Source of the DNA: Rhodoplanes elegans
GTDB taxonomy: Bacteria; Pseudomonadota; Alphaproteobacteria; Rhizobiales; Xanthobacteraceae
Assembly (NCBI RefSeq): GCF_016653355.1
Contig: NZ_NHSK01000052.1
Span: 1 to 37,181, forward strand
Reading direction: 5' to 3'
Length of the DNA: 37,181 nt
Below, piece by piece: positions 6,739 through 34,902 of the stretch. The position numbers and the translations under genes are program-made. Position 1 is the first letter of the stretch; each line of letters opens with the position of its first letter. The notes under the pieces were generated by a model that saw nothing but the letters and a program-made list of their open reading frames with translations, was not told where the DNA came from and made no database searches.

Positions 6739-9420
6739 ATGATCATCACGCATCTCGCCGTCTCGGGCGTCGGCCGCTTTCGCACGCGCCATGTCGTGCG
6801 CGGCCTCGGCGCCGGCCTGAACCTTCTGTGCGCGCCCAACGAGGCCGGCAAGTCGACGCTGTTCCGCGCCCTCACGCTGGCGCTGTTCGCCCGCCACGGC
6901 AGCAAGACCGAGGAGATCCGCCGGCTGGAGAGCCTCGGGGCCGAGCTGCCCGCGTGCATCGAGGTCGGCTTCCAGCGCGGCGGCGCCGCGTATCTGCTGA
7001 AGAAGTCGTTCCTGCGCGCGACCGGCGCCAAGCTGTTCAAGAACGGCGCGCTAGTCGCCGACGGCCGCGCCGCCGACGAGGCGGTGTGGACGGCGCTCGA
7101 TCTCACGCCCGGCACCTCGGCGGCCGAAGAGGCCGCGTTCGGGCTCCTGTGGGTGCGGCAGGGCCAGTCGTTCGAGCCGGCGGCGCCCAGCGACGGCACT
7201 CGCGCCCTGCTGTCGCGCGTCATCGAGGCCGAGGTCGGAGAAGTGCTCGGCGGCGAGCGCGGCGAGCGGGTGCTGAAAAGCGTCACCGACAGGCTCGCCC
7301 TCGACGAGACGGCGAAGGGCCAGCCCAAGGCCGGCGGCGCCTGGAAGGCCGCGCTCGACCGGCGCGCCGAGGCGGAGACGACGCTGGCGGCGCTGCGGGC
7401 GACGCTCGCCGGCCTCGAGGCCGACCGGACCGCGCTCGCCGACAAGCTGCGCGAGCGCGACATGTTGGCCGACCCGGCCGAGATCGCCCGCCAGAAGGCC
7501 GACCGCGACGCGGCGCTCGCCGAGCGCGACCGGACCGTGAAGGCCGAGCAGGCGGCCCAGCAGGCCGAGACCGAGGTGGCACAGCGGGAGCTCGCGTTCG
7601 ACCGCGCCCGCAAGAGCCACGAGGAGCTGGTCGGGCTCGACCAGCGCATCGCCAAGACCCGCGACAAAATCGCGACGCTGACGCGGCGCGTCGCCGAGCA
7701 GGCCGACGCCCGCGCCGCCCAGTCGGCCCGCCTCGCATCGCATGAGCAGGCATTCGGCGCCCTCGCGACGCAGCTCGCCGAGGCCGAACGGGCCGTCGAC
7801 CGGGCACGACGGCACGAGATCGCCGCGCGCGAGGCCGAACGGGTGGCGGAGCTGTCGACGCGGCTCGCCAAGGCGCGCGAGCTGCGGGAGGCGATCGCCC
7901 GCATCAAACATCTGATCACGACCATCACGGTCCCGGCCGAAGCCGTCGCGGCGATCGAGGCCGCCATGCAGGCGCTCGACGCCGCCCGCGCCCGCGCCGA
8001 GGCCAAGGCACCGCGGGTCAGAATCACGGTCGCGCCGGCCGGGCGCGGCCGCGTCATCTGCGCGGGCGAGTCGGTCGACGCGACGCGCGACGTTGCCGCC
8101 GTGGTCCCGCTGACCGTCGCGGTCGGCGATCTCGCGACCATCGAGGTGATGCCGGCGGCCTCCGACGACGCCGCGGCGATCGACGTGGCCCGGCAGGCGC
8201 TCGACAAGGCGCTGCACGACGCCGGCGTCGGCTCGCTCGCCGAGGCGCACGAGCGCCGCGCCAAGGTGTCTGACCTGCAGACCGAGGGGCGTGGCCTCGC
8301 CGCCGAGCTCGCGGCGATCGCGCCGGCCCCCGCCAAGGGCGCCAAGGAGGACGCCATCGCGGCGCTGGAACGGGCGCTCGCGGAGGCGCAGGCGAGCCTC
8401 GACGCCGGCTTCGACGCCGGCCTCGACGGCACCGCCCTGCCCGATCGCGACGCGTTGGTGCGGGCCCGTGTCGAGGCGGAGGCGGCGCGTGACCGCCTGC
8501 GCCGCGCCCATGCCGACGCCCAGTCGGCCGTACTCGCGGCGCGCAGCGAGACCGAGGCCGAGACGCTGCGCCTGCAGGCGGCGCAGCTCGACCTCGCCGA
8601 TCAGCAGGGCAAGCTCGCCGAGGATCTCGCGATCTGCCCCGACGACCGGCGCGTCGACCGGCTGGCGCGGCTCGCCGCCGACGCCGCGCAGGCGCGGGCC
8701 GCCTTCGAGGCGGCCGCCACCAAGGCGAAAGAGCTGCGCGCGCAGGTGCCGAGCGCCGACAGCCGGGTCGCGCTCGACGCGCGGGTGAAACGCCTCGTAC
8801 AGGCGATCGACGGGCGCGAAGAGCGTCTCGCCGAGGTCGAGCGCGAGATCGCCAACCTGCAGGGTCGCGTCGCCACCCGTGGCGGCGAGGGGCTCGGCGA
8901 GCGCGAGGCCGAGACGGCCGACGCGCTCGCGCTCGCCGAGACCGAGGTCGCGGCGATCGAGCGCCGGCTCGCGGCGCTGCGGCTCCTGCGCGACACGCTG
9001 ACCGAGAGCCGCCGCGCCGCCCGCGACAGCTATCTCGGGCCGGTGAAGACCGCGATGCGGCCCTATCTGCACGCGCTGTTCCCGGGTGCCGAGGCGGCGC
9101 TCGACACCGGCTTCTCGATCGACGCGCTGACCCGGGCGGGCGCCGGCGAGCCGTTCCTCCAGCTCTCCGACGGCACCCGCGAGCAGGTCGCCATCATCGT
9201 GCGGCTGGCGCTCGGGCGGCTGCTCGCCGAGCGCGGCCAAGCCGTGCCCGTGGTGCTCGACGACTCGCTCGTCTTCTCCGACGACGACCGCATCGAGCGG
9301 ATGTTCGACGTGCTCACCCAGGCGGCCGAGAAGCAGCAGATGATCGTCCTCACCTGCCGCAGCCGCGCCTTCCTGAACTGCGGCGGCCACGCCCTGACGA
9401 TCGCCCCCGACGAGGGGTGA
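6739..9420 (+). CDS. SbcC/YhaN-like SMC-family ATPase
   Basis: This 893-aa ATPase is of the RecN/SMC/SbcC type and would use ATP to clamp DNA for the adjacent nuclease. The Walker A motif APNEAGKST lies at residues 32-40. The ABC signature region is LSDGTREQVAIIVRLALG. Walker B is VPVVLDDSLVFSDDDR near residues 836-851, followed by a terminal His-less loop with LTCRSRAF. Two long Ala/Glu/Arg-rich coiled-coil stretches (about 200-400 and 500-790) flank a small beta-rich insert near residues 415-470 (RVRITVAPAGRGRVI). No CxxC zinc hook is seen at the apex, unlike true SbcC/Rad50, which points to the YhaN branch. The gene is cotranscribed with the phosphoesterase. Confidence 0.88.
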   Translation: MIITHLAVSGVGRFRTRHVVRGLGAGLNLLCAPNEAGKSTLFRALTLALFARHGSKTEEIRRLESLGAELPACIEVGFQRGGAAYLLKKSFLRATGAKLFKNGALVADGRAADEAVWTALDLTPGTSAAEEAAFGLLWVRQGQSFEPAAPSDGTRALLSRVIEAEVGEVLGGERGERVLKSVTDRLALDETAKGQPKAGGAWKAALDRRAEAETTLAALRATLAGLEADRTALADKLRERDMLADPAEIARQKADRDAALAERDRTVKAEQAAQQAETEVAQRELAFDRARKSHEELVGLDQRIAKTRDKIATLTRRVAEQADARAAQSARLASHEQAFGALATQLAEAERAVDRARRHEIAAREAERVAELSTRLAKARELREAIARIKHLITTITVPAEAVAAIEAAMQALDAARARAEAKAPRVRITVAPAGRGRVICAGESVDATRDVAAVVPLTVAVGDLATIEVMPAASDDAAAIDVARQALDKALHDAGVGSLAEAHERRAKVSDLQTEGRGLAAELAAIAPAPAKGAKEDAIAALERALAEAQASLDAGFDAGLDGTALPDRDALVRARVEAEAARDRLRRAHADAQSAVLAARSETEAETLRLQAAQLDLADQQGKLAEDLAICPDDRRVDRLARLAADAAQARAAFEAAATKAKELRAQVPSADSRVALDARVKRLVQAIDGREERLAEVEREIANLQGRVATRGGEGLGEREAETADALALAETEVAAIERRLAALRLLRDTLTESRRAARDSYLGPVKTAMRPYLHALFPGAEAALDTGFSIDALTRAGAGEPFLQLSDGTREQVAIIVRLALGRLLAERGQAVPVVLDDSLVFSDDDRIERMFDVLTQAAEKQQMIVLTCRSRAFLNCGGHALTIAPDEG

Positions 9421-9747: not shown

Positions 9748-10581
9748 ATGTCGCTCTATGCCGATCCTCCCGACTGGGCGCTCGTGACGCTCGGCGAGCT
9801 GATGCAGTGGCCGCTTCCTTATCAGGACGGCTTCGCCGACCGTTGCCTGGTGCGCGCCATGGCGCTCGCCGCCCGCGGCCGCGTGCTGGCCGTGAGCGGC
9901 CTGCAGAACGTGCGCGCCGGCTACGACCCCTTCATCCTGGCGCTCAACCACTCGACCCGCACCGAGGCCCTGCTGGTGCCGGCCGTGCTGACGCTGCATC
10001 GCGGCGGACGGCTGATCCATTTCATGGCCGACTGGAATTTCCGGCTGATCCCCGGCATCGGCCTGCTCTATCGCCGGTCCGGCGCCCTGACCGTGACGGC
10101 GAAGCCGGCGCGCCCGCGCGTGCTCGATGTCCTGCGCCCGCTCTACCGGTCGCCCGGCAGCGTGCTGGACGAGGCGCGCGCCTGCCTGCGGCGCGGCCGC
10201 TCGGTCGGCATCTTCGTCGAGGGCACGGTCAATCGTGATCCCGAACGGCTGCTGCCCGGCCGGCGCAGCGCCGCCCTCCTCTCGCTCGAGACCGGCGTGC
10301 CGATCGTGCCGGTCGGCATCCGCTTCCCGCACGCGCCGCCCGGCCGCCCGATCGGCGATCGCGACGCCATGGAGGTCCGCATCGGGCCCCCGCTGCTGCC
10401 GCGCGAGCGCCTCGATCATCCTTCGCCCGCCGCGCTGCGCGCCTGGCACGCCACCGTGATGGGCGAGATCGCCCGCCTCTCCGGCAAGCACTGGTCGCCC
10501 GACGGGCCGGACGACCGCCGCGCGATCACGACGGCGCCGGCCCCTGCCCTTCCGCCCCCCTCGTTCGGAGGTTCGCCATGA
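9748..10581 (+). CDS. PlsC-like lysophospholipid/glycerol-phosphate acyltransferase family protein
   Basis: This 277-aa protein of the PlsC (LPLAT) family transfers acyl chains from acyl-ACP or acyl-CoA to a hydroxyl group. Motif I is N67-H68-S-T-R-T-E73, where the usual HxxxxD acid is replaced by Glu; motif III is FVEGT at 156-160, and a final VPIVPVGI segment fits motif IV. There is no obvious N-terminal membrane anchor, and the C-terminal 30 residues are Pro/Ala-rich. The stop overlaps the next gene's start (ATGA, 10578-10581). Pairing an O-acyltransferase with a GNAT-type N-acyltransferase recalls ornithine-lipid genes olsA/olsB and FeeM clusters. A plain lysophosphatidate acyltransferase is the conservative alternative. 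Confidence 0.82.
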   Translation: MSLYADPPDWALVTLGELMQWPLPYQDGFADRCLVRAMALAARGRVLAVSGLQNVRAGYDPFILALNHSTRTEALLVPAVLTLHRGGRLIHFMADWNFRLIPGIGLLYRRSGALTVTAKPARPRVLDVLRPLYRSPGSVLDEARACLRRGRSVGIFVEGTVNRDPERLLPGRRSAALLSLETGVPIVPVGIRFPHAPPGRPIGDRDAMEVRIGPPLLPRERLDHPSPAALRAWHATVMGEIARLSGKHWSPDGPDDRRAITTAPAPALPPPSFGGSP

Positions 10582-24630: not shown

Positions 24631-27600
24631 CGCACGATCTCCGCGTCGCAGCCGGCCGCCGCCTTGGCGAGCCGGGCCTTGAGGTCCGGCGTGACCTTAA
24701 CCGTCTCGAGCGCGCCCGGGATGGTGTGGGCGACCTCCTTGGACACGCCGTCGACCATGATCCTGGTTCGCTCGAACAGCTCGGGGACCTGCTGGTAGCA
24801 GGTCTTGCAGTTGGTGCAGGCGGCGACGTCCTCGTCGCGGATGTGCGGCCTGCTCGTAGCGCGACTTCAGCGCCTCGAGCTCGATGCGATGGTCGGCGTC
24901 CAGCCGCTCGATCGGCCGGCCGGCGAGGTACTGCAAGGTCCGCCAGTAGCGGCGCCGCTCCTCGACGAGATGCACGATGGTGTTGGACACCTCGAGCTTG
25001 ACGAGCCGCTTGTCGGCGTCGGTCGACCACACGAACGGCACCTTGCCGGCGCGCGCCGCCGGATCGAGCGCGACGAAGTCCTCGACCGGGATCGCGTCGG
25101 CCTCGTTCTTCAGCGGACGGAACTGCTTCTTGAAGCGGGTCTCCTCCTGGGCGAAGTAGGCCGGGGTGAGCACCACCTCCTTCAGCTTGGTCGCGCCGTC
25201 CTCGACATACTCAATCGTGGTCGTCGTCCAGTCCTTGTCCACGTCCGGGTTGCCGTCGAGCGAGAACCAGCCCTTGCGGCTGCGGTCGGCGCCCGGATCG
25301 TGCACGAACACCGGGTTCATGCGGGCCTCGACGGCGAGGCGGGCGCGGCGGCTGGCCGCCGCGTCGGCGATGCCATGCTCGGCCTGGCACGGCGTGTAGA
25401 CGTCGAGCACGGCCGGCGACGAGGTGTGGTTGAGGTAGCGCGTCACGTTCTGCAGGAAGTGCTGCTGCAGCGCCGTCGAGGTCTGCACCACGAAGACGTT
25501 CGGGTGGAACGCAGCGATCAGGCCGAGCTCCTTGCGGTCCTCCTGCTTGCCGGCATGGGCGGCGCCGAAGCGCGACAGATCCGAGTCCTGACCGGTGAGG
25601 CTCGCCGTGGAGGCCTGGCCGCCCGTGTTGGAGTAGACGCCGGTGTTGAGCACCACGACCTTGACGGGCGTGTTGGTGGCCAGCAGCCGCGACAGCGCGC
25701 CGAAGCCGATGTCGTAGGTGGCGCCGTCACCGCCCATGCTGATCACGGTCGGCAGCAGCGACAGCTCCTCCGGCGTGAACTGCGACCAGGCGAAGGTGCG
25801 GAAGAACTTGTCGTGCATGCCCGGATCGTAGGCGTCGTCGAGCTCGAGCTTGGCGATCCGCATCGCCTTCACGTCGTCGACGGCCGAGGCCGTCAGCCCC
25901 TCGAACAGCCCCTTGGCGACCGCCGGCGTGTCCTGGAACAGGCTGTTCACCCACGGGTCGTTGTAGGGGTTGAACGGGAAGGTCGAGGCGTAGACCGACG
26001 AGCAGCCGGTGGCGTTGGCGATCACGGCCGAGGCCGGGCCGTTGCCGGTCGGGCCGCTCTCCAGGAGGTACTGGCGCTTCTCCAGGACCTCGATCACGCC
26101 GGCGATGCGCTCGCGCCGCGCCTTGTCGTCCTGCACGGCGGGGAGCTTCGCCTTGAGCTTGTCGATCACGTTCTCCAGCTCGCGCAGATGGTCCTTGCGG
26201 CGCTTGGTCTGGATCGCGTTGTTGGTCGACGTGACGAGGCGGATCGCCGTCACCTCGCCGCAGCCGCGGCAGGCGCCGTGGCCGCCCGTGGTGGCGTAGT
26301 AGTTGGCGCGGTCGAGCATCAGCCGCTTGGTGTCGCCATCGGCCGTCAGCGCCGCGTCGGTGAAGCGGGCCGGCGTGTTCGGGGTCTGGCTGAGGAACTC
26401 GAAGCGGGACTGCAGGCTGTCGAGCAGCGCCGCGTCCTGCTCGCGCGCCTTGAGGGCGCCCGGGCCGCAGACGTCGATGCACTCCAGGCAGCCGGAGCAC
26501 TTCCACGGATCGATCGCCACCGAGTAGAGGCCGCCCGTGCCGGGCTTCTCCTTCTCCATGGAGTCGAAGAACGGCCGCGTGCGCGCCACCGGGAACTCGC
26601 CCAGCACCTCGGCGAGCTTGCCGAGATTGCGCTTGAGCGTCGGGTTGTCGACGTCGAGCCCGGCGGCCGCGGCCGCGACCACGTCGCCGAACGCCTTGGC
26701 GTCCTTGCTGCCGCGATAGGTCTCGCGCACCGCGTCGGCGAGCGCGAAGACACGGTCGCGCACCGCCTCGCGCTGCGCCTCGACCAGATCGAGATGCTTG
26801 AGACCGGTGAGCAGCAGGTCGTGGATGTCGTGCACCGTGTTGGGGATCGCGGCGTCCGGACAGACCAGCGTGCATTCCATGCAGCCCGTGCACAGGGCCG
26901 GCTCGAACTCCGGCACGTCGCGGCGGAACAGGCCCTTGTCCTTCCACGCGGCCGAGCCGGCCGGCATGAACATGCCGGTGCCGGGCAGCACCGGCGCCTC
27001 GCCGATGGTGCCGTCGCGGAACGGTGCGGCGACCATCTCCTCGTAATAGGCGCGGTCGAAGATGCCCTCGGCCGGCGCGGCGCCGGCCGCCTTGCACATC
27101 GCCGCCGAGATGGCGACGGTGCGCAGCTGCTGCACGCCCGCCTCGGTCTCCGCCTCGACGAACTCGGGCCGCGTGTAGTCGAGCGCCTGCGTCGCTTCGA
27201 GGCCCTCCTTGATCACGGCCATGTTGCCGTCGACGACGGCGGCGCCCTTGGAGCCGAACTTCTTGGAGAGCTGCTGCTGCACCTTCTTCAGGATCACGTC
27301 CATCGACGCGTCGGCGACGATGCGGTCGACATGGCCGCACACCGCACCGATGAAGGCGATGCCCATCATGCGGGTCTCGAGCTCGGGCGTCGGCGCATGG
27401 CGCTTGGCGACCGCGAAGCCGTCCACCACGAACATCTTGATCTTCTTGTCGCGGATCGTCTTGCGGGCGCGCTTCGGCAGCTCCTTCCACACCTCCAGCG
27501 GCGAGAGGTTCGACTGCAGCACGAAGGTGCCGCCCTCGACCAGGCCGCGCAGCGGGTTGGTGTGGCTGAACACCTTGTGGTCCGGCGAGACGACGATCTC

Positions 27601-29427
27601 GACGTCCTCGATCTCGGCGTTGGTGATCTTCACCGTCTCGGGGCTGAGCGTGATGTAGTAGTTGGTCGGCGCGCCGCTCTTCTCGGAGCCGTATTTCGGC
27701 GAGGCCTTGGAGTGCATGTCGAGCACGCCGGCCAGGATGTCGGTGAGGAGCTTGCCGGTCGCGATGGTGCCGTAGCCGCCGACCGAGTGGAAGCGCACCC
27801 GGAAGGCCGTCGGCGGCAGCAGGTTCGGGTTCGCCTCGGTCTCGAGCGCCATCAGCTCGGTCTCGGGATAGGCCTCCTTCAGCCTCTCCTGCAAAGCGGC
27901 GAGGCGCGGGCTCGGATCCTTGGCGAAGAACTGCGAGCCGAGATAGACGAACGGCGCGTTCTTGGTCTCCATGTTCTTGAACGCGGCGATCAGGTGGCGC
28001 GGCTGCAGGTCGTGGGCGCCGAGACCGAAGATCGCGGTCGTCATCTTGGGCAGGCGGTCGAGCGCCGGAATGCCCGGGTGGCGGGTGCCGTTGGTGGCGT
28101 TCTCGACGCCCTTGAACAGCGCCTGGGTGACGAAGCTCGTCAGCGCCGTGACATCGGAGCGCTCCAGCACCGTGACGGCCGTCTTGCCCTTCAGGGCGGC
28201 GACCAGCTCGGCCTCCGGGAACGGCTGCAGCAGCTTGATCGACACCACGCCGACCTTCTTGCCCTGGCTGCGCAGATGCTGCACGACCGCCTCGACGTCG
28301 TCCGTCACGGAGCCGAGGCCGACCATCACGTGCTCGGCGTCGTCGCACATGTAGGTCATCACCGGCTTGTACTCGCGGCCGGTCAGCGCCGCGTACTCGG
28401 CCATCGCCTCGCGCACGAAGCGCGGAACGTCGCGCACGAAGTGGGTGCGGTGGTCGACCGAGCCGGCCTGGAAGTCGGGCTGGTTCTGCACACCACCGGT
28501 GAGGCCCGGATTGTGGACGTCGACCAGCGCGGGCACGAGCTGGCGGGTGCCCTTCTCGTAGGCGTTGGTCCACTGGCGCGTCCAGGCGCCGCGCAGTTCC
28601 TCCGGCACCAGCGCCAGCGTGTCGCCGATCAGCGAGGCGGCGTTGTCGGTCTCGACCCCATCGGCCTCGGTCTTCAGCCAGGTGCGCAGCTTGGCGAGAT
28701 CGGCGGGGGCGAAGTCGCCCTCGTGCTTGATCAGCCACAGCTCGAGCTGATGCACGCGGCCCTTGGCGCCGAACAGGATCTCCTGCGCCACGGTCGGGCA
28801 CTTGATGCGGCCGGCCGGATCGCCGAGGAACTCGCGGACCAGCTCAGGCTCCGGCATCAGCGCCTCGCTCATCATGTGCGAGGTGGCGAAGCCGTCCATG
28901 GCGTTGGCGACCGGGATCAGCGAGGTGGCCGACACCTTGTAGGAGATCACGGCGAGGTCGGCCGCCTCCTGCGGGTTGGAGCCGAACAGGATCGTGTAGC
29001 CGGACTGCAGCAGCGCGTAGACGTCGTCGTGGCCGGCCATCACGTTGAGCGAGTGCTTCGACACCACGCGGGCGGCGACCTGCAGCACGAAGCCGCCGAC
29101 CTTCTTACCGACCGTCACGTAGTGGGACTCGAGCCCGTACAGGATGCCCTGGCTGGACGAGGCGTTGGAGACGAACTTGCCGCCGGTGAGCGCGGCGCCG
29201 AGCGCGCCGGACTGGGCCGAATGCTCGCCCTCCGGCTCGAAGAAGAACGGATGCTTGCCCCAGACGTTGCAGCCGCCGGCGGAGCGGAAGGCCTCGTAGA
29301 TTTCGGAGATCTCGGTGGACGGCGTGATCGGATAGCCGATGACGCCGCCGCAGACGTGCCCCATCACCTGGGCGACGGCACCGTTTCCGTTGATGACAGT
29401 CGGAATGCCCGAGTATTTCGCGTTCAT
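24627..29427 (-). CDS. nifJ: Fused pyruvate:ferredoxin/flavodoxin oxidoreductase (NifJ-like), with an apparent frameshift near 24843
   Basis: This single-chain 2-oxoacid oxidoreductase of about 1599 aa would decarboxylate pyruvate with CoA and TPP to acetyl-CoA and reduce ferredoxin. The N-terminal domain has YPITPSTEISE, then the gamma domain (FHSVGGYGTIATGKLL), two 4Fe-4S motifs (C846, 849, 852, 856 and C977, 980, 983, 987), HGACRGCGE, and the TPP site GGDGATYDIGFGALS with Asp1234 and VYSNTGGQAS. The long open frame leaves the family at Ala1528 and runs to 24697 as nonsense. Skipping one base near 24843 restores 71 residues including VAACTNCKTCYQQVPELFER and ends at 24627, overlapping the next gene's start. 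So the real end is 24627 and there is one extra base, a mutation, an assembly error, or a recoding site. Pyruvate as substrate is by family; the start has no strong ribosome binding site. Confidence 0.9.
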
Positions 29428-30081
29428 CTGTTGCGTCCGTCTGGTACGTGATCTCGCGCCGAGCAGGCGTCCGTCGCTCGCATGGGAGCCGGGGCGACCG
29501 TGGTCGCTCGAACCTTCGGTTTTCGACGTTTCGTCCCTGGCTTTTGTCCGGGTCGCGCGCCGAGTCGTGCTCAGGCGCGCCCTCCCGCCTTGACTGGAAG
29601 CGTTCTACTCCCGGGGTACCCCCCTCGCTCTGACTATTGTCAAAGGGTTCGGGCCGCATCGTTGTGCCGCAATGCGGAAAAACTGCTGCCGATCTCACAT
29701 CGGCTTTGCGTCCGACGAGGGTCGCGCTGGCACGGCGGGCGCATCACGGTCGTCTTCATGGTCGCGTCCCGATGCCGGAAGCCCCCGCCCCACGGGGGCT
29801 TTCCGCTCGCCGACCCGACCGTCACGCGGCGCGACGACGATGTGGCGCGGCCCGCTGCACTGCGGCATCGGTGCGCCGCGGTCCCGCGCCGGCCGCAAAC
29901 CGGTCATGTGAAATATCAACTGAAGGGGAAGCTGGCCGGCACGCTGATATGTCGTCCCCCCCGCCGCGCGGATGTCGGGCGGCCGACCCTCGGCCACCGG
30001 CGTCGCCCGAATCGTCGCCTCGGCGCACGCGGCTCGGGGCGCCTGTGGCGTCGCGCGAGCGCGTCCGCGGGCGGCGCCGAT
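29428..30081. other. 654-bp gap between the PFOR gene and the first peptide gene
   Basis: No gene is supported here. On the minus strand, TTGACA at 29638-29643 could be a -35 element for PFOR, but no convincing -10 follows; the palindrome GGGGTACCCC lies just downstream of it. A GC hairpin, GCCCCCG (29781-29787) with CGGGGGC (29793-29799) and a short TTTCC, may be a terminator or small RNA element. The last 50 bp diverge from the second peptide leader, so the shared block starts sharply at 30082. Confidence 0.5.
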
Positions 30082-30082
30082 C

Positions 30083-30108
30083 ATAGCCCGACGCTATCGA
30101 TCCCATAG
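30083..30108 (+). promoter_or_regulatory. Three ATAG/CTAT half-sites at 11-bp spacing, candidate LysR-type regulator site
   Basis: ATAG (30083-30086), CTAT (30094-30097) and ATAG (30105-30108) form two overlapping inverted pairs, each ATAG-N7-CTAT or CTAT-N7-ATAG, fitting the T-N11-A rule of LysR-type sites. The same array is upstream of peptide gene 4. A LysR-type gene lies between the two clusters. Binding is an inference. Confidence 0.6.
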
Positions 30109-30157
30109 GCACTCGGCATTTCAGTTCGGCCCTCTCCGCCGCGATATTCGCATCACC

Positions 30158-30174
30158 GGCTTCGAGACGAAGCC
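30158..30174 (+). promoter_or_regulatory. Perfect 5' leader hairpin before peptide gene 1
   Basis: GGCTTCG (30158-30164) pairs with CGAAGCC (30168-30174) around AGA. It ends 12 nt before AAGGAG, the ribosome binding site, and is identical at 32878-32894. It could affect translation or message stability. Confidence 0.6.
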
Positions 30175-30198
30175 AAGCGAAACCCGAAGGAGACCGAC

Positions 30199-30366
30199 AT
30201 GACCCGCAAGACCCTCGCCCTCGCCGCCCTCGTCGCCGCCACCCTCGTTTCGGCCCAGAGCATCGTGAATGCCGCGCCGTATGGCGACCAGGGCAGCCGC
30301 TATGTCGAGACCGGCCACGGTGCCGTCGAGACCGGCTCCGACCAGGCCAAGGGCGGCATCCGCTGA
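30199..30366 (+). CDS. Small secreted peptide, paralogue 1
   Basis: This 55-aa exported peptide is of no family I recognise. A Sec signal (MTRKTLALAALVAATLVSAQ then SIVNA) is expected to be cut before APYGDQG, leaving about 29-30 residues. The mature part has no Cys, is Gly-rich and polar, and holds an internal VETG repeat (RYVETGHGAVETGSD) and the end KGGIR. AAGGAG (30187-30192) lies 6 nt before the ATG. Against paralogue 4 there are eight synonymous and one nonsynonymous (Leu6 to Ile) differences, evidence for selection on the protein. First of three tandem genes; leader has a LysR-type site array. It resembles in layout, not clearly in sequence, small Rhizobiales secreted DUFs such as DUF680. 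Confidence 0.8.
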   Translation: MTRKTLALAALVAATLVSAQSIVNAAPYGDQGSRYVETGHGAVETGSDQAKGGIR

Positions 30367-30417
30367 ACGACCGCCACCCCCGAGCCCCCGAACCATCAGA
30401 TCGATAGGAGAACCCCC

Positions 30418-30579
30418 ATGAACACGCTCAAGATCGCGCTCGTCGCCCTCGCCACCCTCGCCTCGGCCCAGAGCATCGTGAACGCCGCGCCGTATGGCGA
30501 CCAGGGCAGCCGCTATGTCGAGACCGGCCACGGTGCCGTCGAGACCGGCTCCGACCAGGCCAAGGGCGGCATCCGCTGA
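30418..30579 (+). CDS. Small secreted peptide, paralogue 2
   Basis: This is a 53-aa peptide with signal MNTLKIALVALATLASAQ and SIVNA, then the same mature part as paralogue 1 (from APYGDQGSRY to KGGIR, residue for residue). Only the signal region differs, so the mature peptide is what is being conserved. AGGAG at 30406-30410 lies 7 nt before the ATG. It starts 51 bp after paralogue 1 with no separate site array, so it is probably on the same transcript. Confidence 0.78.
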   Translation: MNTLKIALVALATLASAQSIVNAAPYGDQGSRYVETGHGAVETGSDQAKGGIR

Positions 30580-30628
30580 GCCGCATCACCCCCGAACACA
30601 CATTCGATCAGACTGACAGGAGAGCCCC

Positions 30629-30790
30629 ATGAACACGATCAAGATCGCGCTCGTCGCCTTCGCCACCCTCGCCTCGGCGCAGAGCATCGTGAACGCCGCG
30701 CCGTATGGCGACCAGGGCAGCCGCTACGTCCAGACCGGCCACGGCGCCGTCGAGACCGGCAACGACCAGGCCAAGGGCGGCATCCGCTGA
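30629..30790 (+). CDS. Small secreted peptide, paralogue 3
   Basis: This 53-aa peptide has signal MNTIKIALVAFATLASAQ and SIVNA. The mature part differs from paralogue 1 at two places: RYVQTG for RYVETG and ETGNDQ for ETGSDQ. AGGAG precedes the ATG. It is the last gene of the first cluster, and a strong inverted repeat (30803-30836) follows 12 bp after its stop. Confidence 0.78.
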   Translation: MNTIKIALVAFATLASAQSIVNAAPYGDQGSRYVQTGHGAVETGNDQAKGGIR

Positions 30791-30802
30791 GCCGCAGAGC
30801 AG

Positions 30803-30836
30803 AGACGGGGGGCCGGTGCGCACCGGCCCCTCGTCT
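30803..30836 (+). terminator. Inverted repeat after the first peptide cluster
   Basis: AGACGGGGGGCCGGTGC (30803-30819) is the reverse complement of GCACCGGCCCCTCGTCT (30820-30836) except at one position. It begins 12 bp after the stop of paralogue 3. It lacks a T-tract but is a plausible 3' end or RNA-stabilising stem. Confidence 0.65.
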
Positions 30837-30975
30837 GCCGGCCCGCCGCGCCGGCGATCCGATTGCCCCGCACCGGGGGCGTGTTATAGATCGGCCGTCG
30901 CCGCGGGCGCCGGTCCGCAAAGCCCGTCCGCGGCGATGCCACGCGCGACGTGGTCCATGTCAGCCGAGGCCTGAG

Positions 30976-31668
30976 ATGTCCGATCCGGACCGGTCCGCAT
31001 TCGAATGCTGTCGCGACATGGACGCGCCGCTGTGCGAGCGCCTGGGCGCGCTCGATGCGGTCCACCAGGAGACGGTCCCGGCCCTGCACGAGGTGACCGA
31101 CCGCCTGGTCGCCCGCCTGCGCGAGAGCGGCGTCGGTGCCACGGCCCCGCAGGTCGGCGACCTGATGCCGGACTTCCTGCTGCCGGACGCGAACGGACGG
31201 CTGGTCGGTCTCGACGATCTGCTGGAGACCGGCCCGGTGGCGCTGGCGTTCCACCGCGGCCACTGGTGCTCGTATTGCCGGCTGAGCGTCGACGCGCTGG
31301 CGAAGGCGCGCGCGGCCGCCGATTCGGCCGGCCTGCACATGGTGGCGATCGTGCCGGATCTGCAGGAGTTCGCGCAGAGCTTCGCGGCGGATGCGCGCGG
31401 CGCCGTCCCGGTGCTGTGCGACGTCGACAACGGGCTCGCCGCCAGCCTCGATCTGGTCGTCTGGATGGGCGACGAGATGCTCGACCTGACGAAGAAGGCC
31501 GGCATCGACCTGCCCCGCTACCAGGGCAACGACTCGTGGTCGCTGCCGATCCCCGCGACCTTCGTGGTCGACCGCGACCGGCGGATCCTGGCGCGCTTCG
31601 TCGACCCGGACTATCGCAAGCGGATGTCGATCGAGGCCATGCTGGCCGCCGTCGCGCCCGCGACCTGA
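30976..31668 (+). CDS. AhpC/TSA-superfamily peroxiredoxin-like redoxin
   Basis: This 230-aa thioredoxin-fold protein is of the AhpC/TSA peroxiredoxin-like group. After a 60-residue helical N-terminus comes VGDLMPDFLLPDANGRLVGL, then AFHRGHWCSYCRLS with Cys98 and Cys101, and IPATFVVDRDRRILARFVDPDYRKR. The CxxC rather than the single peroxidatic Cys of TPxCT suggests disulfide exchange or thiol peroxidase activity. No signal peptide is visible, so it should be cytoplasmic. It lies between the two peptide clusters, convergent with the LysR gene, so a part in redox control of that locus is possible but unproven. Confidence 0.85.
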   Translation: MSDPDRSAFECCRDMDAPLCERLGALDAVHQETVPALHEVTDRLVARLRESGVGATAPQVGDLMPDFLLPDANGRLVGLDDLLETGPVALAFHRGHWCSYCRLSVDALAKARAAADSAGLHMVAIVPDLQEFAQSFAADARGAVPVLCDVDNGLAASLDLVVWMGDEMLDLTKKAGIDLPRYQGNDSWSLPIPATFVVDRDRRILARFVDPDYRKRMSIEAMLAAVAPAT

Positions 31669-31726
31669 TCAGCACCGAAGCGGATCGATATCGGACGCGC
31701 GCGGGCCGGCGAGGTCCGGCGCGATT

Positions 31727-32614
31727 TCACGCCAGCAGACGTTTCCAGTTGCACGCGCGCAGCATCTTCATCGCGGCGGTCGCCGCCGGCGACCGCTCGC
31801 GGCCGGCGACTCCGTACAGATAGATGGTCCGCTCCAGCTCGAAGCCGGCGAGCGGCGCCCGCACGACGCTCGCGCCCGACAGCGCGCTCGCCGGCGCGAC
31901 GGCGACGCCGAGATCCGCCTCCAGGAAATGGACGAGATCGCGCTCGCTGTGCAGCTCGTGCGCCCGGTCGACGTCGATGTCGGCCTTGCGCAGGAGCTCG
32001 GCGATGCGACCGGCGTGCTCGCAATAGACGCGCGTCAGGAGCCGCTCCTCGCGCAGATCCTCCGGCTCGACGACGGCGTGATTGGCGAGCCGACTGTCGG
32101 CGCCGATCAGCAGCTCGAACCGCTCCGAGAACAGCGGCCAGTGATCGAAGCGGTCCCAGCTCGTGTCGATCGCCGCGATCATGCCGAGCTCGGTCGTCCC
32201 GTCCTTCAGCAGGCGCGTGACGTCGGCGGCCGAGCCGCGCATCAGCCTGAGGTCGAGCCCGCGGAAATGCCGCCCGAGCTCCTGCAGATGCGGCACCAGG
32301 AGACTGCCGTCGATGCTCTCCGACACGGCGATCCGCAGCGTGCCGGCCTCGCCCTTCTTCATCGACGAGGCGAGCGCGCGGGCCGAGCGCGCGGCGTCGT
32401 CGCACTGCTGCATGAAGGGCAGCATGCGCTGGCCGAGATCTGTCAGCAGCGCCTGCGGCCGCTCGCGCCGGAACAGGTCCCCACCGAACTCGGCCTCGAG
32501 CTGCTGGATGGCGCGCGTGAGCGAGGGCTGCGAGACGTTGCACTCGCTCGCCGCCTGCGTGAAGTTGCGCGTCCTGGCGAGTGCCAGGAAATAGCGCACC
32601 TGATGCATTTCCAT
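31727..32614 (-). CDS. LysR-type transcriptional regulator
   Basis: This 295-aa LysR-family regulator has an N-terminal winged helix-turn-helix (HQVRYFLALARTRNFTQAAS...NVSQPSLTRAIQQLE) at about residues 4-60, a linker helix, and a C-terminal periplasmic-binding-like effector domain from about residue 90 (TLRIAVSESIDGSLLVPHLQ). These proteins bind T-N11-A sites as tetramers and respond to a small ligand. Its start at 32614 is 190 bp from ATAG-N7-CTAT arrays at 32803 in the divergent gap with peptide gene 4, the usual layout for LysR-type autoregulation. The same array precedes gene 1. The effector is unknown. Confidence 0.92.
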   Translation of the reverse strand: MEMHQVRYFLALARTRNFTQAASECNVSQPSLTRAIQQLEAEFGGDLFRRERPQALLTDLGQRMLPFMQQCDDAARSARALASSMKKGEAGTLRIAVSESIDGSLLVPHLQELGRHFRGLDLRLMRGSAADVTRLLKDGTTELGMIAAIDTSWDRFDHWPLFSERFELLIGADSRLANHAVVEPEDLREERLLTRVYCEHAGRIAELLRKADIDVDRAHELHSERDLVHFLEADLGVAVAPASALSGASVVRAPLAGFELERTIYLYGVAGRERSPAATAAMKMLRACNWKRLLA

Positions 32615-32802
32615 CCGGGCACCGAACCCACGGTCTCCATCCGCGGAGACTTCATTCGAAGACGTCTGACGCAGGAGACAGGCGCATCGCAGCGCCGAGC
32701 CCGCAGAAAGCGGCCTCCACGCGTGGAAGATTTAAGTTTCGAGCCCGCCAGGTCAAGGGCGAAGCGGCGCCGACCGCCGCCAGGCATCCCGTGCCGCGCG
32801 CC

Positions 32803-32828
32803 ATAGCGCGACGCTATCGATCCCATAG
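32803..32828 (+). promoter_or_regulatory. Second ATAG/CTAT/ATAG half-site array
   Basis: ATAG (32803-32806), CTAT (32814-32817) and ATAG (32825-32828) repeat the array at 30083-30108 with the same 11-bp steps. Here the first pair extends to ATAGCG-CGA-CGCTAT. It sits in the divergent gap between the LysR gene and peptide gene 4. Confidence 0.62.
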
Positions 32829-32877
32829 GCACTCGGCATTTCAGTTCGGCCCTCTCCGCCGCGATATTCGCATCACC

Positions 32878-32894
32878 GGCTTCGAGACGAAGCC
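32878..32894 (+). promoter_or_regulatory. Perfect 5' leader hairpin before peptide gene 4
   Basis: GGCTTCG and CGAAGCC pair around AGA, identical to 30158-30174, upstream of the AAGGAG ribosome binding site. Confidence 0.6.
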
Positions 32895-32918
32895 ACAGCG
32901 AAACCGAAGGAGACCGCC

Positions 32919-33086
32919 ATGACCCGCAAGACCATCGCCCTCGCCGCCCTCGTCGCCGCCACGCTGGTGTCGGCCCAGAGCATCGTGAACGCCGCGCCCT
33001 ATGGCGATCAGGGCAGCCGCTACGTCGAGACCGGCCACGGCGCCGTCGAGACCGGCTCCGACCAGGCCAAGGGCGGCATCCGCTGA
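32919..33086 (+). CDS. Small secreted peptide, paralogue 4
   Basis: This 55-aa peptide is the counterpart of paralogue 1: signal MTRKTIALAALVAATLVSAQ and SIVNA, mature part identical. The nine base differences are eight synonymous plus Leu6 to Ile. GAAGGAG precedes the ATG. It is the first gene of the second cluster and is divergent from the LysR gene. Confidence 0.8.
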   Translation: MTRKTIALAALVAATLVSAQSIVNAAPYGDQGSRYVETGHGAVETGSDQAKGGIR

Positions 33087-33136
33087 ACGACCCCACCCCC
33101 GACCACATCACTGATCAGACCAACAGGAGACCCCCC

Positions 33137-33298
33137 ATGAACACGATCAAGATCGCGCTCGTCGCCCTCGCCACCCTCGTCTCGGCCCAGAGCATCGTCA
33201 ACGCCGCGCCCTCCGGCGACCAGGGCAGCCGCTATGTCGAGACCGGCCACGGCGCCGTCGAGACCGGCAACGACCAGGCCAAGGGCAATATCCGCTGA
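33137..33298 (+). CDS. Small secreted peptide, paralogue 5
   Basis: This is a 53-aa peptide with signal MNTIKIALVALATLVSAQ and SIVNA. It is the most divergent mature form: APSGDQG for APYGDQG, ETGNDQ for ETGSDQ, and KGNIR for KGGIR. AGGAG lies upstream of the ATG. It ends the second cluster, with a hairpin (33314-33336) 16 bp after its stop. Confidence 0.78.
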   Translation: MNTIKIALVALATLVSAQSIVNAAPSGDQGSRYVETGHGAVETGNDQAKGNIR

Positions 33299-33313
33299 CG
33301 ACCAGCGGACGAC

Positions 33314-33336
33314 GGCCGGCCCCGCCGGGGCCGGCC
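33314..33336 (+). terminator. Hairpin after the second peptide cluster
   Basis: GGCCGGCCCC (33314-33323) pairs perfectly with GGGGCCGGCC (33327-33336) over a GCC loop. It lies at the same place as the inverted repeat after cluster 1 but with a different sequence. There is no T-tract. Confidence 0.68.
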
Positions 33337-33362
33337 GATCCACACGAGCGCGGAGGTGCGTC

Positions 33363-33665
33363 ATGAATCGACTGGGCTTTGCGATCGCCGTCGTCCTCGC
33401 AGTCGTCACGACAGGGATCACGATGGGTGTCACGGGCGCGCCGGCCGCGCCGTTCGGGTCAGATCAACCGCCGAACGTCGGCACGACGCCGGGCGAGGTG
33501 CGGAACGACGTGCCGCGCGGACCATTCTCGGCGCGCTCGGGGCCCGGCTTCGCGGCCGACGTCGTATGCCGCGACGCGACCCTGCTCGACACGATTCCGC
33601 CCGGCCGCGGCCGCCTGTTCGAGTGTCTTCCCGACGGCTCGCCGGCGACGCACGTTCCGCACTGA
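33363..33665 (+). CDS. Small exported protein of unknown function
   Basis: This 100-aa protein has a signal or anchor at residues 5-28 (GFAIAVVLAVVTTGITMGVTG). The rest is Pro/Gly-rich with two Cys (VVCRDATL and FECLPDG), which might form a disulfide outside the cytoplasm. GGAGGTG at 33351-33357 precedes the ATG by 5 nt, a strong start. I do not recognise a family. It shares strand with the peptides and follows them by 64 bp, but its sequence is unrelated. It is convergent with the esterase. Confidence 0.65.
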   Translation: MNRLGFAIAVVLAVVTTGITMGVTGAPAAPFGSDQPPNVGTTPGEVRNDVPRGPFSARSGPGFAADVVCRDATLLDTIPPGRGRLFECLPDGSPATHVPH

Positions 33666-33687
33666 ACGCCGTCGCGGTGTTGGACAT

Positions 33688-34902
33688 TCAGCGCCGCTTG
33701 TTCAGGCCGGCCGCGTCGAGCGCGCGCTTGATCGTGTCCTCGACGAACTTCTGGACACCCGGACGAGGTCGCGGCGGATCCGCGGCGCGGCCTCGGGGCG
33801 GCGGCACGGCGGCGTCGGCCGCCGGCGCGACCCGCGGAGACTCGACGCGTTGTGCTTCGACACGCGGCGCCGGGCGCTCGCCGGCGAACGGGTTGACGAT
33901 CGTGCGCCGCGTCTGCGTCAGCCCGAAGAAGCGGGCGATGTGATAAGACGACGAGATCCCGACCTCGATCAGATACTCGCCGGGCACGCCGTAGCTCGTG
34001 TCGTCGTCGCCACCGGCGACCGGGGCGCCGTGCGCCATCAGCGGAATGATGTAGCTCTCGATCACGTCGCGGCCCTTGGCGTCGGTCCACACGTGGCGCG
34101 GATAGCCGTCGACCGTCTCGGTCCGGTCAGGGCGCGTCGAGAGGCCGTGCACGTCGGTCCACTGCTTGAGCAGCTCCTCGGCGTTCTTCGGCTTGACCAC
34201 CGTGTCGGCGCCGCCGTGCCAGACGGAGACGCGCGGCCACGGCCCGCGATGCGGCGAGGCGGCGCGCACCAGATCGCCCCATTCCTTCGGCTCGCGCACC
34301 TTCACCCGGAACATGCTCTCCAGCGCCTGGCGCATGCCGGTCGCGCTCTTGTAGGGCAGCCCGGCCACGATGGCGCCGGCGGCGAAGACCTCCGGATAGG
34401 TCGCGAGCATCACGGCCGTCATGGCGCCGCCCGCCGAGAGACCGGTGACGAAGATCTGCTTGGGATCGACCGCATGATCCTCGGCCATCTTGCGGATCAT
34501 CTGACGGATCGAGGCGGCCTCGCCTTGCCCGCGCGTCGCGTCGTGCTCGCGGAACCAGTTGAAGCAGGTCTTCGGGTTGTTCGCCTCGGTCTGCTCGGGG
34601 AACACCAGCAGGAAGCCGTAGCGGTCGGCGAGCGTCGACCAGCCGGCGCCGAGATCGTAGCTCGCCGCCGTCTGGGTGCAGCCGTGCATCACGACGACGA
34701 GACTCTTGTTCGGCTTCTTCGGGACGTACTTGTACATCCGAAGGCCGCCCGGATTGGGCCCGAAGTCGGGCACCGCCGTGAGCCGGCTCGGCACGTCCGG
34801 CCGCTCGCGCGACGAGACGGCGCCCGGCATCATGCGCAGGAACGCTTCCCACTGCTTGCGCTGGCGCTCCAGCGCCGCGATTGTCGTCTGCAGACCGGGC
34901 AC
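33688..34902 (-). CDS. PHB-depolymerase family esterase
   Basis: This alpha/beta hydrolase of about 404 aa is of the Esterase_phd/poly(3-hydroxyalkanoate) depolymerase-like group, which cleave polyester or acyl and feruloyl esters. Visible features are VVVMHGCTQTAASYD (oxyanion region, 70-84), nucleophile Ser156 in TGLSAGGAM, WHGGADTVVKP with the acid, and IPLMAHGAPV with the likely His. A Pro/Arg-rich C-terminal tail of about 60 residues ends in a basic helix. GTG 34902 is preferred, as GAGGAG lies 8 nt upstream and the protein then begins PGLQTTIAALERQ. An ATG at 34965 is possible but adds 21 unconserved residues. No clear signal peptide is present with the GTG start, so it may act inside the cell. 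Confidence 0.87.
   Translation of the reverse strand: MPGLQTTIAALERQRKQWEAFLRMMPGAVSSRERPDVPSRLTAVPDFGPNPGGLRMYKYVPKKPNKSLVVVMHGCTQTAASYDLGAGWSTLADRYGFLLVFPEQTEANNPKTCFNWFREHDATRGQGEAASIRQMIRKMAEDHAVDPKQIFVTGLSAGGAMTAVMLATYPEVFAAGAIVAGLPYKSATGMRQALESMFRVKVREPKEWGDLVRAASPHRGPWPRVSVWHGGADTVVKPKNAEELLKQWTDVHGLSTRPDRTETVDGYPRHVWTDAKGRDVIESYIIPLMAHGAPVAGGDDDTSYGVPGEYLIEVGISSSYHIARFFGLTQTRRTIVNPFAGERPAPRVEAQRVESPRVAPAADAAVPPPRGRAADPPRPRPGVQKFVEDTIKRALDAAGLNKRR

Follow-up and report, generated by a model that had tools for sequence, protein, structure and literature searches.

Five small secreted-type peptide genes behind a duplicated LysR-type box in Rhodoplanes elegans: probable output of a LysR–redoxin regulon and a shared C-terminal tail

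Results

Two clusters of peptide genes are preceded by the same LysR-type box

We analyzed a stretch of 37,181 nucleotides from Rhodoplanes elegans (contig NZ_NHSK01000052.1, positions 1 to 37,181, hereafter the window), in which five genes for Sec-type mini-peptides form two clusters flanking a convergent redoxin–LysR gene pair. Each cluster is preceded by the same LysR-type box, and as this box is also found near orthologous LysR–redoxin pairs and before small secreted genes elsewhere, there is probably a LysR regulon responding to oxidant or metal stress, apparently not yet described, in which the peptides are the output particular to Rhodoplanes. On the arrangement of these sequences, we consider control of the peptides by LysR likely. 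Besides the box, the peptides carry a C-terminal tail that recurs on other small secreted-type proteins of the genus.

The initial annotation had described five tiny secreted peptides of 53–55 amino acids (aa) in two clusters around a redoxin and a LysR gene, and all five open reading frames (ORFs) were confirmed, as were the two enclosed genes by their Pfam domains (Table 1). The duplicated promoter with its box, the shared tail and a small secreted-type gene at 33363-33665 are additions to that description. For comparison, our genus sample consisted of six Rhodoplanes genomes, namely the window genome (G000), R. tepidamans DSM 9987 (G001) and G002 to G005.

The roughly 115 bp upstream of each cluster are near-identical and well conserved in R. 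tepidamans. They contain the box, of the form CTATCGATCCCATAG-N8-CATTTCA, and its T-N11-A dyad lies upstream of the peptide targets and beside the lysR gene. With the pattern used, the full box has two sites only in this genome, each 75 nt before a peptide ATG. It precedes peptide genes in G001 and G004 too, at the same distance of 75 nt in both R. tepidamans clusters and at 77 nt in G004. A 17-base half pattern gave ten further matches with 3 mismatches in the window genome versus one in the control, and by score the ten were not box-like. The putative -35/-10 hexamers are weak, of the activator type, and conserved in the R. tepidamans alignment. Near the presumed 5' end of the mRNA, a 7-bp hairpin was seen in the leaders of all four G000 and G001 clusters and is missing from G004; a scan of positions 29300-33700 against Rfam gave no match.

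Provided that cleavage occurs before AP, the predicted mature peptide is APYGDQGSRYVETGHGAVETGSDQAKGGIR, with 30 residues, 3064 Da, an isoelectric point (pI) of 5.5, a grand average of hydropathy (GRAVY) of -0.96 and neither Cys nor Met, the signal peptides having been assigned from hydropathy together with the A-x-A rule instead of a trained predictor. The near-invariance of the mature part noted in the initial annotation stands, while its length of about 29 residues becomes 30 with this cleavage. As had been stated, copies 1, 2 and 4 have the same mature part, from which copies 3 and 5 differ by two and three residues, respectively. The signal peptides, previously called varied, have signal parts of two types, MTRKT in the first gene of each cluster (copies 1 and 4) and MNT in copies 2, 3 and 5. 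Between copies 1 and 4 the mature part has accumulated four synonymous and zero amino-acid changes. A whole-genome search at E<=0.001 revealed no sixth copy, and Cys is absent from all nine aligned Rhodoplanes peptides.

No match above cut-off was found in Pfam, NCBIfam, PHROGs or PDB sequences, which agrees, for these collections, with the earlier view that the peptides belong to no described family; in Pfam, four of the five had no family at E<=1 and one had a sub-cut-off porin match (E 0.013). Judged by titles and abstract openings, the open-licence articles of PubMed Central (PMC) returned nothing on the peptides, the box or the tail. Two further ideas were set aside: that the mature part is under strong purifying selection, for which the between-species comparison gave no clear support, and that the origin is mobile, as no match was found among plasmids or viral contigs.

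The box accompanies LysR genes and small secreted genes in other genomes

The box pattern, with at most two mismatches, matched 34 times in 23 of 120 relatives versus a single match for the reversed control, and some of the two-mismatch matches fall inside long ORFs and are probably due to chance. A gene similar to the window LysR was found within ~3 kb at 10 of the 30 box loci examined among these 34, compared with 0/51 control loci. A matrix built from 12 sites, applied to eight LysR–redoxin loci that had not been used for it (79,426 bases), gave 11 matches scoring at least 20 and none in the reversed sequence or in five shuffles; on 15 redoxin loci without a called LysR (140,984 bases), the same matrix gave four. 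Finally, a signal-like ORF start lay 55–95 nt downstream of 24 of the 41 box sites scoring at least 24, against 196 of 2000 random positions, although some of these 41 sites helped to build the matrix and the rule for "signal-like" is crude and admits some genes for short-chain dehydrogenases/reductases (SDRs).

The genes behind the box in other Hyphomicrobiales include those for bufferin precursors, a secreted cupin, a hydroxybutyrate-type SDR, LysR proteins and small secreted proteins. Bufferin-like precursors occupy this slot at loci L102, L105, L109, L115, L116 and L169, DUF2282 having been tested, and confirmed with Pfam, for L105 alone and the other assignments made by eye; the cupin was confirmed for L101. 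What we propose is thus a regulon with one box, one LysR–redoxin pair and swappable small secreted outputs, bufferins included.

Some box-linked loci had features of their own. At L106 (G037), the LysR orthologue has beside it a tandem of two redoxin genes, with one box-like site upstream of each (GTATCGAAACCATAC and GTATTGAAACCATAC). A box-linked gene at L112:6677-7111 (G070), divergent from a LysR gene, encodes a 145-aa secreted-type protein with three [AV]PENKIGDR[YF]P repeats. At L115 near 14322 (G098), a secreted-type ORF of 66 codons with the C-terminus SDPWIR follows a box-like site, and a bufferin-like gene close to it has a box-like site of its own.

The LysR–redoxin pair is conserved, and one LysR cysteine aligns with that of one OxyR

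A convergent, adjacent redoxin gene was present at all nine full-length LysR loci at least 39% identical to the window protein, in addition to the window itself; this count excludes L111, which is truncated at the end of its contig, and the LysR fragment of 91 residues at L103. The LysR proteins of the 33–35% kind (L026, L103, L111 and L112) have no adjoining redoxin. Starting from the redoxin, 9 of 24 loci in named genomes had a LysR gene called by sequence pattern, convergent in eight of them, and these belong to Rhodoplanes, Hyphomicrobium and kin, and one unplaced metagenome-assembled genome. No LysR was called at the other 15, which are mostly from sphingomonads and Caulobacter kin, with one Hyphomicrobium.

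Two cysteines, Cys25 and Cys198, are invariant in the 11 LysR proteins aligned. Cys198 aligns with the GHC Cys of Corynebacterium glutamicum OxyR (two 6g1b chains), the Cys that reacts with peroxide, but faces a gap in the alignment with Pseudomonas aeruginosa OxyR. The window LysR has the LysR fold in common with OxyR and a thiol-redox protein as its partner, but it lacks the second OxyR Cys and reaches 75 bits with the NCBI OxyR model, far below the cut-off of 329. The Cys198 pattern in the alignment is a lead only to thiol-based sensing.

Spread of the peptide within Rhodoplanes

Clear peptide copies were found in three of the six genus genomes only, with five in G000, three in R. tepidamans and one in G004. 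The R. tepidamans locus has the gene order of the window: nifJ, two peptides, redoxin, lysR, one peptide, a small secreted gene, a polyhydroxybutyrate (PHB) esterase and an SDR. In G004, the single peptide gene occupies the same nifJ–esterase slot; its neighbours are a LysR other than that of the window (33% identical) and a secreted-type protein of 107 aa, and the redoxin is missing. Conservation of the LysR and redoxin neighbours, a point raised by the initial annotation, is thus full in R. tepidamans and partial in G004, which keeps the box. Identity to copy 1 is 79–98% within the genome, 58–63% for the R. tepidamans copies and 54% for that of G004; since copies within a genome are closer than copies across species, they would either have been duplicated separately or have stayed alike through gene conversion.

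At E<=0.01, the peptides matched in 9 of 296 family genomes, four of the nine being in the genus. The G003 match is weak (4.5e-4) and corresponds to a tail-bearing protein of 59 aa in a different genomic place. Outside the genus, no genuine relative was found among 290 family genomes: five matched at this threshold and none was convincing, as none is preceded by a signal-like start, stops interrupt two of them, and on the opposite strand a better-scoring gene overlaps the strongest one (L046, 5.3e-5). A pattern scan of the genome contig collection found no peptide, a weak negative considering that it missed R. tepidamans, a member of that collection.

A C-terminal tail is shared with other small secreted-type proteins

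The last eight residues of the peptides form a tail, D[QRP]A[KT]GxI[RHYD]-stop. When the six genus genomes were searched at the DNA level for D-x-A-[K/N/T]-G-x-I-x-[stop or Trp], 17 exact matches were obtained; each has a true stop and forms the end of a small ORF whose start is signal-like. Nine are the peptides, and the other eight are other small secreted-type proteins, found in G004 (107 aa and 104 aa, both behind the box, 60 aa on contig C39 and 88 aa on C55), G000 (87 aa on C106 and 90 aa on C241), G003 (59 aa on C44) and G001 (82 aa on C2), with ORF starts partly chosen by us. Some of these eight are cross-species counterparts, and protein bodies are dissimilar from one group to the next. 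As codons differ between tail matches, it is the protein sequence that is kept. The exact tail was found neither in G002 nor in G005 (58% complete).

Allowing one mismatch, the genus gave 31 matches versus 3 in the control, 27 of them without a stop codon; of the four with a stop, L210 (G003) is a small secreted-type protein (DAPKGSIR) and L208, L220 and L221 are not. In the 192 genomes outside the genus among 198 family genomes searched, matches were at chance level (11 with one mismatch versus 9 in the reversed control); only two of these 11 lie at the end of an ORF, with neither product looking exported. At one-mismatch stringency, the tail looks genus-specific. A shuffle test of the tails was not used because it would be circular, the proteins having been found by their tail.

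Sorting signals such as LPXTG, PEP-CTERM and GlyGly-CTERM are C-terminal and occur on otherwise unlike exported proteins. The Rhodoplanes tail is similar in being a short conserved C-terminus on otherwise unlike exported-type proteins, but no transmembrane helix or basic end follows it, and the motif reaches the last residue. If functional, a tail common to mostly unlike proteins of this type would act as a signal in sorting or processing and, in contrast to the signals already known, would do so with no membrane anchor.

Discussion

Our best explanation, to which we give slightly less than an even chance as a whole, is that the peptides are LysR-switched, exported, protective and active by abundance, and that their tail is a recognition element. 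LysR would sense oxidant or oxidant-linked metal stress, perhaps via Cys198, bind the CTAT-N7-ATAG box and activate the two near-identical promoters. Short mRNAs, for which the 5' and 3' hairpins may be the bounds, would encode five copies of a peptide of ~30 residues, which would be expressed highly, exported by Sec into the envelope and, by its abundance there, protect under stress; gene dosage may matter. In doing so, the peptides would occupy the slot held in relatives by bufferin precursors, a secreted cupin or secreted proteins of ~100 aa. Their tail would be read by one envelope partner (a receptor, a protease or an anchoring factor) that also handles other tail-bearing small proteins. 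A protective role in the envelope is a tentative proposal, and that the tail is a signal to be read is more tentative still. The wider idea of a new C-terminal recognition tag on small Sec-exported Rhodoplanes proteins, with a single envelope reader and with the peptides as near-minimal cargo that a LysR stress switch supplies in large amounts, is doubtful. The regulated, redox- or nutrient-linked exported set suggested by the initial annotation fits as to regulation and redox, considering the near-identical LysR-box promoters, the conserved LysR–redoxin pair and the box at bufferin and cupin genes, while nutrient stress found no support.

Several observations weigh against this explanation. 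Cys is missing from the peptides, as is Met from their mature part in this genome, and no His is conserved, so that acting as an oxidant sink or a metal ligand is not an obvious function for them. The AlphaFold model of the peptide has no confident fold, with a single weak hairpin and a mean predicted local distance difference test score (pLDDT) of 61.9, and over the full coding sequence the between-species proportion of nonsynonymous differences (pN) is ~0.24 for the peptides versus ~0.10 for their neighbours, so the peptides evolve faster. On the regulatory side, 17 of the 41 box sites have no signal-like ORF at the set distance, and most tail proteins outside the locus have no box; among tail bearers, only the peptides and the two G004 proteins have one. 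As to sensing, a gap stands opposite Cys198 in the alignment with Pseudomonas aeruginosa OxyR (4x6g), and the second, resolving OxyR Cys, expected about nine residues later, is not conserved in the alignment as judged by eye. Moreover, in G004 the LysR next to the peptide with the same box is of another subtype, and a search of that genome for the window LysR at E<=1e-50 gave no match; either the box is common to related LysR proteins, or LysR and box are only loosely linked.

Descent offers another explanation, namely that the peptides are shortened descendants of A3, a secreted-type family of ~100 aa that we defined in this analysis (L120-L149), having kept the signal peptide, first hairpin and tail and lost the middle. 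They may then retain part of the A3 role or be heading for loss. A3 matched at E<=0.01 in 23 of 120 relatives, the weakest matches being doubtful and ten falling in G009 alone, and four members scanned had no Pfam or NCBIfam match above cut-off. Its model has a bb-a-bb core (mean pLDDT 72.9), for which the peptides are too short and which found no match at E<=0.001 in a PDB fold search. Common descent is suggested by G004, where a single box precedes both the peptide gene and the adjacent gene for the 107-aa A3 member, the products ending in DQAKGYIR and DQATGYIR, and where a second A3 member (104 aa), also with a box, ends in DPAKGYIR. Profile comparison with hhalign aligned the signal part and first hairpin (probability 49%, E 1.7e-4), but much of this match is signal peptide, the tail also occurs on proteins without evident A3 likeness, and the solely synonymous changes between the mature parts of copies 1 and 4 argue against decay. 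The box, for its part, is found at a minority of A3 loci (3/30 plus L110), a further point against our own explanation. The link by descent is suggestive only, and we regard this origin as somewhat unlikely.

It is improbable that the peptides are bufferin-like precursors of ribosomally synthesized and post-translationally modified peptides (RiPPs), modified by an enzyme encoded elsewhere. They do share with bufferins (BufA1/DUF2282) a small Sec-exported-type product with a signal peptide, the stress setting that we propose and, in the six bufferin-like loci of other Hyphomicrobiales listed above, the slot behind the same LysR-type box at a similar distance, and a sizeable share of precursor genes does not adjoin a gene for a multinuclear non-heme iron-dependent oxidase (MNIO), according to PMC12452194. 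However, the window peptides have neither a DUF2282 match nor the four conserved Cys, in fact no Cys at all, and among the genes called between 24.7 and 37.2 kb no modifying enzyme was recognised, including any MNIO (DUF692) gene by Pfam on five non-peptide proteins; this search did not extend to the rest of the genome. PMC12452194 also places bufferins in copper stress and does not mention LysR (0 occurrences), and in Caulobacter, DUF2282 genes are described under SigF, with chromium (PMC3511200). Least likely of all is a release of the peptides as signals or antibacterials, with copy number serving dose. Small, secreted-type, multi-copy and lineage-specific products would suit such a role, but no immunity, exporter or receptor gene was recognised alongside, the tail also sits on unlinked proteins, and an acidic, hydrophilic composition (the pI and GRAVY given above) is unlike that of typical membrane-active peptides.

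For LysR-switched protective peptides, one of the nearest precedents in oxidant response is RclR-rclABC of Escherichia coli, with a small periplasmic protein under regulator control (PMC7464077). The likeness lies in a small envelope product under a regulator and in the oxidant setting that we propose for the window peptides; RclR is a different regulator from the window LysR. A methionine-rich peptide system reportedly serves against hypochlorite, from which the window peptides differ in having no Met in the mature part.

Table 1. Coordinates of the features of the locus in the window
Feature	Position	Strand	Remarks
LysR-type box, cluster 1	30094-30123	+	CTATCGATCCCATAG (T-N11-A, CTAT-N7-ATAG) plus CGGCATTTCA
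Putative -35 TTCAGT / -10 GATATT, cluster 1	30120-30148	+	17-bp spacing; read by eye
Hairpin in 5' untranslated region, cluster 1	30158-30174	+	GGCTTCG-AGA-CGAAGCC; z -2.19; 4/200 shuffles fold as well
Peptide 1	30199-30366	+	55 aa
Peptide 2	30418-30579	+	53 aa
Peptide 3	30629-30790	+	53 aa
Tail DQAKGGIR-stop	30340-30366 (peptide 1), 30553-30579, 30764-30790, 33060-33086	+	
GC-rich hairpin after cluster 1	30803-30836	+	60-nt stretch, -40.2 kcal/mol, no shuffle control
Redoxin (AhpC-TSA, CxxC)	30976-31668	+	Pfam AhpC-TSA 1.1e-18; convergent with lysR
LysR-type regulator	31727-32614	-	Pfam LysR_substrate 1.1e-32 and HTH_1 1.7e-19
LysR-type box, cluster 2	32814-32843	+	Exact duplicate of cluster 1 box; between divergent lysR and peptide 4
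Hairpin in 5' untranslated region, cluster 2	32878-32894	+	z -2.28; 4/200 shuffles fold as well
Peptide 4	32919-33086	+	55 aa
Peptide 5	33137-33298	+	53 aa
Tail DQAKGNIR-stop	33272-33298 (peptide 5)	+	
GC-rich hairpin after cluster 2	33313-33337	+	50-nt stretch, -30.6 kcal/mol, no shuffle control
Secreted-type protein, two Cys	33363-33665	+	100 aa; start chosen by us

Neighbouring features

The secreted-type protein encoded after cluster 2 has a counterpart in R. tepidamans that is 44% identical, and it had no Pfam, NCBIfam or PHROG match; whether its gene is linked to the peptides is uncertain. Between nifJ and cluster 1, at 29908-29954, we observed an inverted repeat, GTGAAATATCA-N26-TGATATGTCG, which is also present in G001 (L025 ~7233-7279) and G004 (L026 ~10336-10383), has no Rfam match and may serve in regulating the nifJ-type gene. 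This gene, encoding a pyruvate:ferredoxin oxidoreductase (24697-29427), matches its relatives up to about residue 1527 and then, after a gap, in another frame only, which points to a frame change near the 3' end in the window copy or in its sequence.

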